NCBI GenBank assembly: GCA_030156395.1 | Contig: JASGMP010000006.1 | Location: 1 to 40,337 of the forward strand | Reading direction: 5' to 3' | Source: Fidelibacterota bacterium | GTDB lineage: Bacteria > Fidelibacterota > Fidelibacteria > Fidelibacterales > Fidelibacteraceae | DNA: 40,337 nt | Shown here: positions 26,679 to 31,119 of the stretch, one piece after another | Numbering within the stretch: the first letter of the stretch is position 1 | Layout of the letters: each line of letters opens with the position of its first letter | Program-made: the position numbers and the translations under genes | The notes under the pieces: generated by a model | The model's input: only the letters and a program-made list of their open reading frames with translations | Databases searched by the model: none | What the model was told of the DNA's origin: nothing

Positions 26679-27444
26679 ACGTTGTGCTTTTCGAGTAGAA
26701 TATGAAGGAACCGCTTACTGCGGATTTCAGCTTCAACCGGACCAGCCAACGATTCAGGAAGCCATTGAAACAGCATTTTTTGCTCTTTATCGTATTGATA
26801 TCCGCATTGTAGGCAGTGGACGGACCGATTCAGGAGTCCACGCAGCCGGACAGGTTTTCCATGCCGATGTGCCAGAGAACATTCCATGTCATAAATTGGG
26901 AAAAGCTCTAAATAGTCATTTACCTGAAGATATACGTATCACCGGAGTATCCCCGGTGAATCGTACATTCCATGCCCGTTATGATGCTGTGTCACGACGG
27001 TATTCCTACAGAATTTTCAACGGTGTAACTGTTTTAAACCGCCGTTTGGTCTGGCAGATCTATCAACCCTTGGATGTCCCTGCCATGAATCATTGTCTTT
27101 CTTTCATAAAAGGAGAACACGATTTTACTTCCTTTTGCCTGAGCCAGACAGAAACGCACCCTAAAATTTGTGATATTCAATCTGCCGAATGGCAGGTCAG
27201 GGGGCCTGAATTACTTTTCTTTATCCAGGCGAACCGTTTTCTACATGCCATGGTCCGCTCACTTGTGGGAACCATGGTGGATGTGGGAAAAGGGCGATAC
27301 ACAGTTCATGATTTTGAAAACATTTTCAACAAAGTTACCCATGGTTCTGGGGCGGTTACAGCCCCTGCCCGGGGATTAGTGCTTGAGGAAGTCATTTATA
27401 ATCCGCAGATTACATGGCAATGGTCAGGAGTAGGACAATGTTAA
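26668..27444 (+). CDS. truA: tRNA pseudouridine(38-40) synthase
   Basis: Modifies U38-U40 in the tRNA anticodon arm. I choose ATG 26668, 8 bases after an AGGAG site. An ATG at 26662 leaves only 2 bases and an upstream TTG at 26650 is less likely. The 258-residue protein has RVEYEGTAYCGFQLQPDQPTIQ, the catalytic Asp54 in VGSGRTDSGVHA, FHARYDAVSRRYSYRI, and FLHAMVRSLVGTMVDVGKG. Length fits the family. It overlaps the EcfT-like gene upstream and the protease gene downstream. Confidence 0.95.
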   Translation: MVLRRCAFRVEYEGTAYCGFQLQPDQPTIQEAIETAFFALYRIDIRIVGSGRTDSGVHAAGQVFHADVPENIPCHKLGKALNSHLPEDIRITGVSPVNRTFHARYDAVSRRYSYRIFNGVTVLNRRLVWQIYQPLDVPAMNHCLSFIKGEHDFTSFCLSQTETHPKICDIQSAEWQVRGPELLFFIQANRFLHAMVRSLVGTMVDVGKGRYTVHDFENIFNKVTHGSGAVTAPARGLVLEEVIYNPQITWQWSGVGQC

Positions 27445-28583
27445 AAAATAAAAGGCTTGTTTGTATAGCTCTTATCCTTATAACGGTAATGTCGGCTTCA
27501 GCCCAGTTTATCGGTCCGGCTAAACCGGATAATCTGAATCAACAGGTGACCGAAAGCCGCCGGAATGCCATCACCCATGCCATTGAAAAGTGTGTACCGG
27601 CTGTGGTGGGTATCCATGTGACGGAAATCAGGGCTGTATCACTTGGATCGGCCTATAACGATCCCTTGTGGGATCTCCTGTTTCCCGGACAGTTGTATCA
27701 ACGGGAAGTGAAAAGCATGGGAAGCGGTGTTATTATTAGTCCGGATGGATATATTGTCACCAATGCCCATGTGGTGGGGAAAAACGCTGTGAAAGTCATT
27801 GTCACTCTCAGTGGCGGGACCCGCTATTCTGCGGAAGTGGTCGGGGTAGATGACCTGACGGATATTTCCCTATTAAAAATTGAAGCGGAAGATCTTCCCA
27901 CTATAGAAATTGGGGATAGTGATGATGTGATCATCGGAGAATGGGTGGTTGCGCTGGGGAATCCTTTTGGACTTTTTGATATCAGCAATCAACCGACGGC
28001 AACCATTGGTATTGTCAGTTCGAAAAATGTCAATTTCGGAGAACAGGCCGGTGGCAGGGTATATCAGGAAATGATCCAGACAGATGCCAGCATCAATTCG
28101 GGTAACAGCGGAGGAGCCCTTGTAAATGTTCACGGTGAAATGATCGGCATCAACACCTTTATCTTTACGGCGGGAAACCAGATGGGTGGATCTGTCGGGG
28201 TGGGTTTTGCCATCCCGGTTAACCGGATGAAAACCGTCATAGATGAACTGATTCGCAGCGGATATGTGGAACGTGGGTTTGAAACGGGACTCAGTGTGCA
28301 AACTCTGGACCAGTATATAGCTGCATACCTGAATTTGCCTTTTAAACAGGGTGTGATCGTAACGGATATCCAAAAAAACAGTTCAGCCCATAAAGCCGGT
28401 CTGAAAGTTGGAGATATCATCCGAAAAGTCAATAATATACCCGTGACAAATACCCGGGACATTTACCGGGTCATCAATGAAAATTACCTGAAGGCAGGCG
28501 ATGTGATCCGCCTGGAAATCTGGCGAAATCAAAAAACCATGTCCTGTGAACTGGTGCTGGAGAAACCTTCAGGCAGAAAATAA
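27438..28583 (+). CDS. HtrA/DegP-family serine protease with one PDZ domain
   Basis: Periplasmic quality-control protease. From ATG 27438 (AGGAG at 27426-27430) the protein has 381 residues: signal peptide (1-22), trypsin-like domain with intact triad His111 (TNAHVVG), Asp142 (DLTDISLL) and Ser224 (NSGNSGGALVN), then a single PDZ domain (about 280-375, with GVIVTDIQKNSSAHKAGLKVGD). One PDZ places it closer to DegS-like or HtrA proteins than to two-PDZ DegP. It overlaps truA by 7 bases. Confidence 0.93.
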   Translation: MLKNKRLVCIALILITVMSASAQFIGPAKPDNLNQQVTESRRNAITHAIEKCVPAVVGIHVTEIRAVSLGSAYNDPLWDLLFPGQLYQREVKSMGSGVIISPDGYIVTNAHVVGKNAVKVIVTLSGGTRYSAEVVGVDDLTDISLLKIEAEDLPTIEIGDSDDVIIGEWVVALGNPFGLFDISNQPTATIGIVSSKNVNFGEQAGGRVYQEMIQTDASINSGNSGGALVNVHGEMIGINTFIFTAGNQMGGSVGVGFAIPVNRMKTVIDELIRSGYVERGFETGLSVQTLDQYIAAYLNLPFKQGVIVTDIQKNSSAHKAGLKVGDIIRKVNNIPVTNTRDIYRVINENYLKAGDVIRLEIWRNQKTMSCELVLEKPSGRK

Positions 28584-28617
28584 ATCGGCAAGCGTTACCC
28601 ATAAGGTAAGGAATTGA

Positions 28618-29217
28618 ATGGAAAAAATCGGCATATTGAATTATCCCGGTGCCAGCGGTGATCATGACCTGTACTGGGCAGTCCGGAACTGTTGCGGTCA
28701 GAAAGCGGTTTTCCTCGAGAGCGGCAATTGGAGCCCCGTTGAAGTCTCGGCACTTCTCATTCCTGGGGGATTATTTGTATCCGGATATTCCGATGTGAAG
28801 GACAATCACTTGATTGCCCACGTTATCCGAAACTACAAGCCGGTTTTGGCTATTGCCGAGGGATATTATTTTATCAAAGCAAGTCAGAGACTTACTGCTG
28901 ATCTTATCCCCCAGGGAGAAAAAAAGAAAGAGACAACCGGCGGAGCCATCATTACAGATAACAGCAATTTCTGGTTTACCCGGTATGAGGAAAATGAAGT
29001 GGTCACCTGGCCAGAATCCTACAGATTCCACTCGTTTTCCCGGGATGATAGGATAAATTCCATCGTTGTTTCTAAAACAGACGAACGGGTGTTGGGAATC
29101 GGACTTAAAAAATATCCGGTAGCTGCCCTGTTATTACATCCTGAAAGAGCTGTGGATGAGGCCATCGGGGATACTTCCGGAACAAAATTATTCAATGTGT
29201 TGAGGATAGATCAATGA
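28618..29217 (+). CDS. PurQ-like class I glutamine amidotransferase lacking the catalytic cysteine
   Basis: A 199-residue protein that resembles PurQ, the glutaminase subunit of FGAM synthase: KIGILNYPGASGDHDLYWAV at the N-terminus, LLIPGG, and LLLHPERAVD near the end. In PurQ the nucleophile elbow reads GICNGFQ. Here it is AIAEGYYF, so Ala80 replaces the cysteine while His174 and Glu176 (HPE) remain. Glutaminase activity is therefore not expected. It could be a regulator, a structural subunit or a binding protein. An AAGGAA site precedes the ATG, the frame is intact, and it overlaps the DUF4321 gene by 4 bases. Confidence 0.75.
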   Translation: MEKIGILNYPGASGDHDLYWAVRNCCGQKAVFLESGNWSPVEVSALLIPGGLFVSGYSDVKDNHLIAHVIRNYKPVLAIAEGYYFIKASQRLTADLIPQGEKKKETTGGAIITDNSNFWFTRYEENEVVTWPESYRFHSFSRDDRINSIVVSKTDERVLGIGLKKYPVAALLLHPERAVDEAIGDTSGTKLFNVLRIDQ

Positions 29218-29483
29218 AACAAAAATTTTCAGTTGGAAAAGCATTGGGAATCATTTTGCTGGGTGCCATTATCGGCGGCATACTGGGTGAATTGTTCGGA
29301 ATGATCCTGCCCGAGAGTGTGGTACGGGAATTCCTTTTAAAGAAATATGCTTTTGGGTTTACAAATCCCCTGAATATTGATCTGAGTATCATCACCTTCA
29401 GTTTCTCCCTCATGTTTCGTATGAATGTGGTGAGTCTTCTGGGGATTGTATTCGGGTATTATATCCTAAAATATACACGATGA
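29214..29483 (+). CDS. DUF4321 family small membrane protein
   Basis: An 89-residue protein with two hydrophobic segments: about 10-32 ([22 protein letters not shown]) and 57-86 ([16 protein letters not shown], then [12 protein letters not shown]). The central [11 protein letters not shown] matches the DUF4321 pattern. The function of this family is unknown to me. It starts in the stop codon of the PurQ-like gene and precedes tatA by 13 bases. Confidence 0.75.
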
Positions 29484-29496
29484 AAGTGAGGTCACA

Positions 29497-29727
29497 ATGA
29501 ATTTCGGTCCATGGGAACTTATAATTATCCTGGTGATCATTCTGTTGATTTTTGGCCCGAAAAAGCTTCCAGAGCTGGCCAAAGGGCTTGGAAAGGGCCT
29601 TCGGGAATTCAAAAAAGCGGCACATGATGTCCAGGACGAACTGGAAAATGTAGGGGAAGACGAAGAAGAAAGTCAGGTGGAGAAGTCTACCGGAAAAGAC
29701 GACCATAAAACTAAGAAAAAGGGTTAA
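29497..29727 (+). CDS. tatA: Sec-independent protein translocase subunit TatA/E
   Basis: Pore-forming component for export of folded proteins. The 76-residue protein has a short N-terminal helix ([16 protein letters not shown]), the hinge [23 protein letters not shown], and an acidic-then-basic soluble tail (EDEEES, KKKG). It is TatA/E-like rather than TatB by length and the F-G-P hinge. TatC is not in this window. A GAGGT site precedes the ATG. Confidence 0.95.
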
Positions 29728-29742
29728 GAAGACCGGGGATTT

Positions 29743-31119
29743 ATGAAATATTCAACCAAGGATCACATTTCCAACCTGATTGACACGATAAACGGGACCC
29801 GCAATCCCATATTTATCACCGTGGATAAAGAATGGCTTTGGAAGCATCTTGAAGAACAGGAAGTTATTCAGGGTCCCTTATCGGGGAAAATTATTGCCAT
29901 CAAAGATAATATCAATGTTCTGGGTTTGCCAACCACATGTGCCAGCAGGATTTTAAAGACATTTTTATCGCCCTATGATGCTACGGTGATCAAAAAAATC
30001 CGGGATGCGGGAGGTATTCTTTTGGGTAAGACAAACATGGATGAATTTGCCATGGGCTCTTCCAATGAGTACTCCGCCGTTGGAGCTGTAAAAAATCCTG
30101 TGGATGAAACCCGTGTTCCCGGTGGTTCCAGCGGTGGTTCGGCGGCTGCGGTGGCGGCCGGGATCGTAGAGTATGCTCTGGGGTCGGATACAGGAGGATC
30201 GATCCGGCAACCGGCAGCGTTTACGGGTACGGTAGGACTCAAGCCCACATATGGCCGGGTTTCACGATACGGTCTGACCGCTTTTGCATCTTCCTTTGAC
30301 CAAATTGGTCCCATTACCCGGACTGTCCGGCAGTCTGCCGAACTCCTGGAAGTGATTGCCGGAAAAGATCCCCTGGATTCCACATCGGCCGACATCCCGG
30401 TGGGGAATTATGTTCGTGACCTGGATGAAGATGTGAAAGGACTAACATTGGGAATTCCCTGGCATCTGTTGGAAAAAGGGGTGGATGGGGATGTGATGGA
30501 TTCCTTTCAGGATGCAGTGAAAATACTGGAAAAAGCCGGTGTAACTTTTCGGGAGATTGAACTGAAATATGCCGATTATGCCATAGCTGTATATTACATC
30601 CTGGCTACGGCCGAAGCATCCAGCAATCTGGCCCGTTTTGACGGGATTCGGTATGGCGTAAATCAGGAAATAGACAATGGCGACCTTTTTTTTACCTATG
30701 CCGAAAACCGTTCGAAAGGATTTGGACCGGAAGTCAAACGGCGGATTATGCTGGGAACCTACGTGCTTTCTTCCGGTTATTATGAGGCTTATTATGCCCG
30801 GGGACAAAAAGTCCGTACTTTGATTGCCCGGGAATTTGACACTTTTTTGAAAAATTTGGACGGAATTATGCTCCCCACTACACCCACAACGGCATTTAAA
30901 CTGGGAGAACATGTCAATGATCCACTTAAAATGTATTTGAATGATATCTTTACCGTCTCTGTGAATATTGCCGGACTGCCGGCATTGAGTGTCCCCGTAA
31001 AGCCTGGAAAAGATGGATTGCCTGTCGGGTGCCAGTTGATCGGCAGAGCCTATGAGGAAGGAACTATTTTGCGTCTGGGTCATAGGATTGAAAAATCCCG
31101 GCATCAACTGGAACTGTAA
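29743..31119 (+). CDS. gatA: Glutamyl/aspartyl-tRNA amidotransferase subunit A
   Basis: Amidase of the GatCAB complex that converts Glu-tRNA-Gln (or Asp-tRNA-Asn) to the amidated form. The 458 residues have the Ser-Ser-Lys triad at Lys54 (AIKDNINV), Ser129 (GGSSGGSAAA) and Ser153 (SDTGGSIRQPA), spaced as in known GatA. The C-terminal half includes GFGPEVKRRIMLGTY and GIMLPTTPTTAF. GatB and GatC are not in this window. It lies 15 bases after tatA and 53 before batA. Confidence 0.93.
   Translation: MKYSTKDHISNLIDTINGTRNPIFITVDKEWLWKHLEEQEVIQGPLSGKIIAIKDNINVLGLPTTCASRILKTFLSPYDATVIKKIRDAGGILLGKTNMDEFAMGSSNEYSAVGAVKNPVDETRVPGGSSGGSAAAVAAGIVEYALGSDTGGSIRQPAAFTGTVGLKPTYGRVSRYGLTAFASSFDQIGPITRTVRQSAELLEVIAGKDPLDSTSADIPVGNYVRDLDEDVKGLTLGIPWHLLEKGVDGDVMDSFQDAVKILEKAGVTFREIELKYADYAIAVYYILATAEASSNLARFDGIRYGVNQEIDNGDLFFTYAENRSKGFGPEVKRRIMLGTYVLSSGYYEAYYARGQKVRTLIAREFDTFLKNLDGIMLPTTPTTAFKLGEHVNDPLKMYLNDIFTVSVNIAGLPALSVPVKPGKDGLPVGCQLIGRAYEEGTILRLGHRIEKSRHQLEL

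Follow-up and report, generated by a model that had tools for sequence, protein, structure and literature searches.

The nearest known counterpart of the protein analysed here is the PurQ subunit of the PurSLQ enzyme (T. maritima, 3d54 chain D; families TIGR01737/PRK03619). Our protein, which we call pseudo-PurQ, has in common with it the fold, the gene position before DUF4321-tatA-gatA, the PGG strand-loop and the HPER motif, and differs from it in having neither the nucleophile Cys, nor the Asn that follows, nor the GFSYGDYLRxGA, AHGEG and NPNGS segments; the purS gene is gone as well. In working enzymes the interface between glutaminase and synthetase is very large, and where the ammonia exits, Arg1263, beside the catalytic Glu, touches a loop of the synthetase (PMC3815217). 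Another type of FGAM synthase, mdPurL, was described in methanogens, where PurL carries ~200 extra N-terminal residues and there is no separate purS (PMC3261824). The same work reports Memar_1841 of Methanoculleus marisnigri, a PurQ-like protein without the triad in a genome with a complete PurQ beside mdPurL elsewhere; it is shorter by roughly 150 residues and was read by the authors as a case of decay (PMC3261824). Pseudo-PurQ is likewise a second, triad-less PurQ-like gene in a genome with a complete PurQ and an mdPurL but, unlike Memar_1841, it keeps the whole fold, the His and the Glu, and purifying selection acts on it in five genomes. Loss of the catalytic motif with retention of fold and constraint is also what characterizes pseudoenzymes acting allosterically or as scaffolds (PMC10211241), a review in which no amidotransferase or PurL example was found. 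Our literature search returned no paper containing both "PurQ" and "pseudoenzyme", none on DUF4321, none on Marinimicrobia together with purine biosynthesis, and no report of a maintained pseudo-PurQ or a co-retained pseudo-PurL. A triad-less PurQ beside mdPurL had been reported already (Memar_1841), and, going by the papers searched, the new elements here are the maintenance of pseudo-PurQ and the dead PurL retained with it.

The pseudo-PurQ gene and its product

The window, that is, the whole stretch of 40,337 nucleotides that was analysed, belongs to a genome of Neomarinimicrobiota (Marinimicrobia) whose named relatives are STD1_216 and UBA6817. The features of the gene are the following.

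28608..28612, + strand: AAGGA, Shine-Dalgarno-like, 5 bases 5' of the ATG, by direct sequence reading
28618..29217, + strand: pseudo-PurQ (P0001), 199 aa; ORF with ATG start, PurQ families matched below cut-off, fold match, orthologues G001-G004
28855..28860, + strand: codons GCC GAG of Ala80-Glu81, replacing the PurQ nucleophile Cys-Asn, from the genus orthologues and the canonical PurQ alignment
29008..29040, + strand: WP-x-S-x-RFHSFS (residues 131-141), genus-specific conserved block in place of PIAHGEG, from alignments
29137..29148, + strand: kept HPER motif, His174-Pro175-Glu176-Arg177, from alignments

The reading frame is unbroken over its 199 codons, and the intact frame given in the preliminary description of this DNA was found again, with a Shine-Dalgarno-like sequence where that description has a good ribosome-binding site. 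The resemblance to PurQ was weak but clear, and we consider it genuine though the scores lie far under the family cut-offs: 49.6 bits against NCBIfam PRK03619 (E=3.2e-13; cut-off 212) and 38.6 bits against TIGR01737 (E=7e-10; cut-off 177.8), with E=0.14 for the general Pfam GATase family. An AlphaFold2 model, obtained with 19 relatives in the alignment (pLDDT 85.5, pTM 0.88), had T. maritima PurQ (3d54_D) as its top PDB match, with E=3.0e-14 and a TM of 0.86 over the query; the predicted fold is that of class I glutaminases, with PurQ nearest. PADLOC gave no match, and a reading as a defence system was dropped on that account.

By alignment with 30 canonical PurQs, all of which have Cys-Asn at the elbow, the five genus orthologues have Ala-Glu at this place. 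In the window the codon of Ala80 is GCC (28855-28857), and of the Cys-His-Glu triad only His174 and Glu176 are present, just as had been described. That description got the loss of the Cys right and understated the extent of the change, since the majority of sites at least 90% conserved among the 30 canonical PurQs are lost too. The elbow Asn and Gln are gone together with the Cys, and three further segments (GFSYGDYLRxGA, PIAHGEG and NPNGS) are lost or deleted in 5/5 orthologues. The sites that survive are PG-x-x-x-D-x-D, PGG, HPER, the Gly that follows the elbow and a few positions towards the C-terminus, while ESGxW, YSDxKDxH and WPxSxRFHSFS appear as new invariants specific to the genus. 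Judged by its residues, pseudo-PurQ is excluded from hydrolysing glutamine by the Cys mechanism.

Ancestral position, distribution and selection

The gene order around pseudo-PurQ was compared across lineages. The names psd, pssA, purS, lnt and batA were given by sequence recognition and position, and the identity of purS, DUF4321, tatA, gatA, truA and htrA was checked against family models. The neighbours in the window are these.

27414..28583, + strand: htrA-type protease, directly upstream of pseudo-purQ (Pfam; gene-order comparison)
29214..29483, + strand: DUF4321 small membrane protein (Pfam PF14209, E=4.7e-13, 49.2 bits, cut-off 27)
29497..29727, + strand: tatA, inherited part of the purQ-DUF4321-tatA-gatA block (Pfam TatA_B_E, E=8e-23; synteny)
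29743..31119, + strand: gatA, inherited part of the same block (Pfam Amidase, E=8.7e-139; synteny)

The usual canonical order is psd-pssA-purS-purQ-DUF4321-tatA-gatA. PurQ was located in 19 genomes outside the family, and in 17 of them a Cys-bearing purQ stands directly before DUF4321. The order in the window, common to the genus, is lnt-...-truA-htrA-pseudoPurQ-DUF4321-tatA-gatA, so that the downstream block is in place and psd, pssA and purS are missing upstream. In related lineages the order is truA-htrA-psd-pssA-DUF4321-tatA-gatA, purS and purQ having been removed; within the family, pssA is followed by DUF4321 in genus g3, where purS and purQ were deleted, and DUF4321 by gatA in genus g2. 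In the g2 genomes L118, L122, L124 and L125 there is no tatA between DUF4321 and gatA, and psd-pssA-purS-purQ are gone; instead, the adjoining gene is a long one on the opposite strand. From this comparison pseudo-PurQ occupies the ancestral purQ position and its coupling to DUF4321 is inherited. In a PurQ tree the branch leading to the pseudo-PurQ clade is so long (7.6 changes per column) that it leaves the placement unsettled, and because of this branch orthology was taken from synteny, not phylogeny: by its gene position, pseudo-PurQ is orthologous to canonical purQ.

The coupling itself, proposed from the window, is borne out by the Pfam match and by an ATGA overlap between the stop of pseudo-purQ and the start of DUF4321, which was also seen in the three orthologues read (G001, G002, G004). 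The role at the membrane that had been deduced from it is unsupported and was dropped, the pairing being ancestral and found with canonical, Cys-bearing PurQ across the phylum.

Pseudo-PurQ orthologues were found in 4/5 other members of the genus (G001-G004), with 58-89% identity, all of them with Ala-Glu. The assembly of the remaining member (84% complete) has no DUF4321 either, which indicates that the locus is missing from that assembly. A profile made of the five proteins and run against 245 genomes of the phylum retrieved a Cys-less protein in this genus only, and on this result we discarded the idea that Cys-less PurQs are more widespread at the locus; a permissive search of ten members of the family for a Cys-less PurQ at the locus gave nothing convincing. 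The other small PurQs of Marinimicrobia had GICNGFQ in every one read.

The pairwise dN/dS of pseudo-PurQ was 0.097 (window-G004), 0.096 (window-G002) and 0.081 (G004-G002), which resembles the values for the same pairs, in the same order, of gatA (0.144, 0.118 and 0.079) and truA (0.133, 0.144 and 0.182). Distant pairs, mostly saturated at synonymous sites, were left out; the single estimate left among them, for G002-G001, was a dN/dS of 0.249 at a dS of 1.35. The protein therefore combines a missing catalytic motif with purifying selection on its sequence, as a pseudoenzyme does. The low dN/dS also agrees with the earlier view that this is not a decaying gene.

The FGAM synthase of the family and the second PurL

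It was also possible to locate a Cys-bearing PurQ elsewhere in the genome of the window, a point left to be checked: contig C54 carries purM, a PurL of 997 aa (TIGR01736, 513 bits) and a PurQ of 294 aa with VCNGFQ. A free PurS is absent throughout family f1, to which the genus belongs, by family-model search; the ~1000-aa PurL of the family instead matches PurS weakly at its N-terminus. The large PurQ was present in all three f1 genera, with the exception of a few incomplete genomes, and had only distant matches outside f1. Its sister family f2 (G019) retains purS, a small PurL and a Cys-bearing PurQ. Taking into account this retention and the f1-wide large PurQ, the replacement is placed near the base of family f1, which by its gene content makes FGAM with a PurS-PurL fusion adjacent to purM and a larger, Cys-bearing PurQ. 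The arrangement resembles the mdPurL type (PMC3261824) in its 997-aa PurL, PurS-like stretch and separate PurQ; pseudo-PurQ itself is no part of such an enzyme.

All six members of the genus have a second PurL-like protein of about 667 aa, which in the genome of the window (G000:C102:6887-8887; 666 aa) is encoded between uvrC and a gene of the FAH family. This pseudo-PurL lacks the SEH, ESHNHPSA...GAATG, GDPF, QDMGAAG and SESQERM motifs, and only 39 of 181 canonical-invariant positions are kept in all genus members aligned; its identity within the genus is 59-90% and its dN/dS 0.088 (window-G004). A FAH gene also follows the canonical purL of G019, whose product was the closest aligned canonical PurL (31%), and on these two grounds pseudo-PurL is most likely the former PurL, still at its original site. 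The dN of pseudo-PurQ and pseudo-PurL ran in parallel, being 0.052/0.052, 0.297/0.300 and 0.343/0.357 for the window against G004, G003 and G001; such values would fit a pair evolving together and are no proof of it. Genus g3 keeps a degenerate PurL, and pseudo-PurQ was not detected there.

The suggestion that pseudo-PurQ is a partner using ammonia from elsewhere finds no support for FGAM synthesis. The purM-PurL-PurQ cluster on C54 has its own glutaminase and the retained ancestral PurL is devoid of catalytic and ATP motifs, and ammonia-dependent FGAM synthesis with pseudo-PurQ was dropped for both reasons.

The same motifs are missing from degenerate PurLs read in nine genomes, which represent eight further families (f10 twice, f11, f12, f17, f23, f24, f25 and f28); a FAH gene follows four of these PurLs. 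One of the nine, G029, also has a PurL above the family cut-off. In a tree of the C-terminal half of PurL, seven of the eight families grouped together (99/99), and the present genus, f11 and g3 stood apart. A dead PurL is kept in at least eight families of Marinimicrobia besides that of the present genus; the dead PurLs are likely to have more than one origin, an exact number being blurred by long branches. The degenerate PurLs of L248 and L279-L286 are about 590-700 aa long and have no catalytic motifs, and several have uvrC or a recA-like gene ahead of them and a FAH gene behind. Annotation pipelines may call such genes purL, and we advise caution against purL/purQ annotations of pseudo-genes in metabolic models of Marinimicrobia.

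Explanations for the retained subunits

The explanation that we propose, to which we give a probability of about 0.5, is that a displaced FGAM synthetase survives here through its PurL and PurQ, as pseudoenzymes that are probably partners. Pseudo-PurQ would be the ancestral PurQ of the PurS/PurL/PurQ FGAM synthetase of the lineage. The PurL with a PurS-like N-terminal domain and the larger, Cys-intact PurQ beside purM would have taken over FGAM synthesis near the base of the family, and the old purS would have been lost. In the genus, the old purL and purQ would have stayed in place, losing glutamine hydrolysis and the ATP/FGAR chemistry, and purifying selection would have kept their products as pseudoenzymes. 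The two proteins would most likely still form a heteromer that makes no FGAM and that works by binding, as a scaffold or as a metabolite-responsive regulator. The parts of this proposal differ in strength. We regard as established the orthology by synteny, the missing active-site motifs, the constraint on the sequence, the existence of the replacement enzyme and the retention of pseudo-PurL along with pseudo-PurQ; continued binding between the two and a regulatory role are inferred. That pseudo-PurQ is a displaced and catalytically dead PurQ under selection is very probable; for its association with pseudo-PurL we would put the odds near even. By motif, Arg177 of pseudo-PurQ matches the interface residue Arg1263. 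Working enzymes conserve the QDMGAAG motif of PurL and the NPNGS loop of PurQ. Neither survives here, so docking of the canonical kind is not evident, and the degenerate PurL of g3, with no pseudo-PurQ detected, means that the pair is not obligatory everywhere. A more far-reaching form, tentative and in our opinion rather doubtful, is that the whole complex was displaced and PurL and PurQ exapted as a non-catalytic heteromer, the recurrence of dead PurL pointing to a hidden PurL(Q) job that is independent of FGAM and predates the displacement. Dead subunits kept after an enzyme is replaced offer a natural test for hidden non-catalytic functions of metabolic enzymes; here two subunits of one complex have lost catalysis and both are constrained, and the recurrence of dead PurL makes the question of what else PurL/PurQ does directly testable.

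Other explanations place the function in pseudo-PurQ alone or in a different partner. A new enzyme or a stand-alone ligand binder, built on His174/Glu176 with Glu81, RFHSFS and YSDxKDxH, would account for the new invariant residues of the genus, and the fold class does include diverse hydrolases, some among the lower-ranked fold matches. However, the elbow Ala is invariant with no alternative nucleophile evident there, and no family match points to another reaction, so we hold this reading to be unlikely, if still the strongest of these competitors. Pseudo-PurQ could also be a regulatory subunit of the working PurS-PurL fusion, competing with the large PurQ or modulating it; pseudoenzymes are known to work in this way, as inactive paralogues that bind an active partner and so regulate it (PMC10211241), and an active FGAM synthase is encoded in the same genome. 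The working PurL is nevertheless of a different type and has its own PurQ, genera g2 and g3 use the same enzyme without pseudo-PurQ, and most of the conserved PurQ segments have been lost, which makes such regulation improbable. The ATGA overlap kept in the genus might instead suggest a relic that persists only for the translational coupling of DUF4321. This has very little in its favour, given that a dN/dS of ~0.09 and residues invariant down to 58% identity reveal selection on the amino-acid sequence, and that in g3 DUF4321 persists without any purQ before it. As regards a sequencing error in the elbow of an active PurQ, an isolated substitution or a decaying pseudogene, nothing was found in favour; the identical Ala-Glu in five separate genomes (all the members with an assembled locus), the intact frames and a dN/dS of 0.08-0.10 in close pairs led us to drop these possibilities, whose likelihood we take as negligible.

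Some observations were made besides the displaced enzyme. In two MAGs there are extra partial PurL matches, in frames of 373 and 711 aa (G003:C17:14873-15811 and G018:C40:12-1295), possibly contamination or third copies. Six genomes (G029, G045, G060, G032, G040 and G038) have no free PurS, and their PurQ-like match, 30-35% identical to the large PurQ, lies in frames of 417-453 aa; in G029 a PurL frame of 778 aa is close by. These are possibly another replacement of FGAM synthase. Losses of the Cys were also seen in Bacillus sp. HF117_J1_D (L033), Siminovitchia terrae LMG 29736 (L034) and Bacillus norwichensis Sa1BUA2 (L035). Their PurQ has the elbow GIGNGFQ, with Gly for the nucleophile Cys, and AHKKG for AHGEG; it is the only PurQ found in each genome and is encoded in the pur operon beside PurL. 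These three are an independent Cys loss in an enzyme apparently still in use, which may make FGAM on free ammonia. The PurQ of a Robertmurraya MAG (L037, 4789-5472), also the only one found there, has the elbow GVGNGFQ and FPGSDDVD for FPGSNCDVD, and may be either a MAG artefact or another Cys loss.
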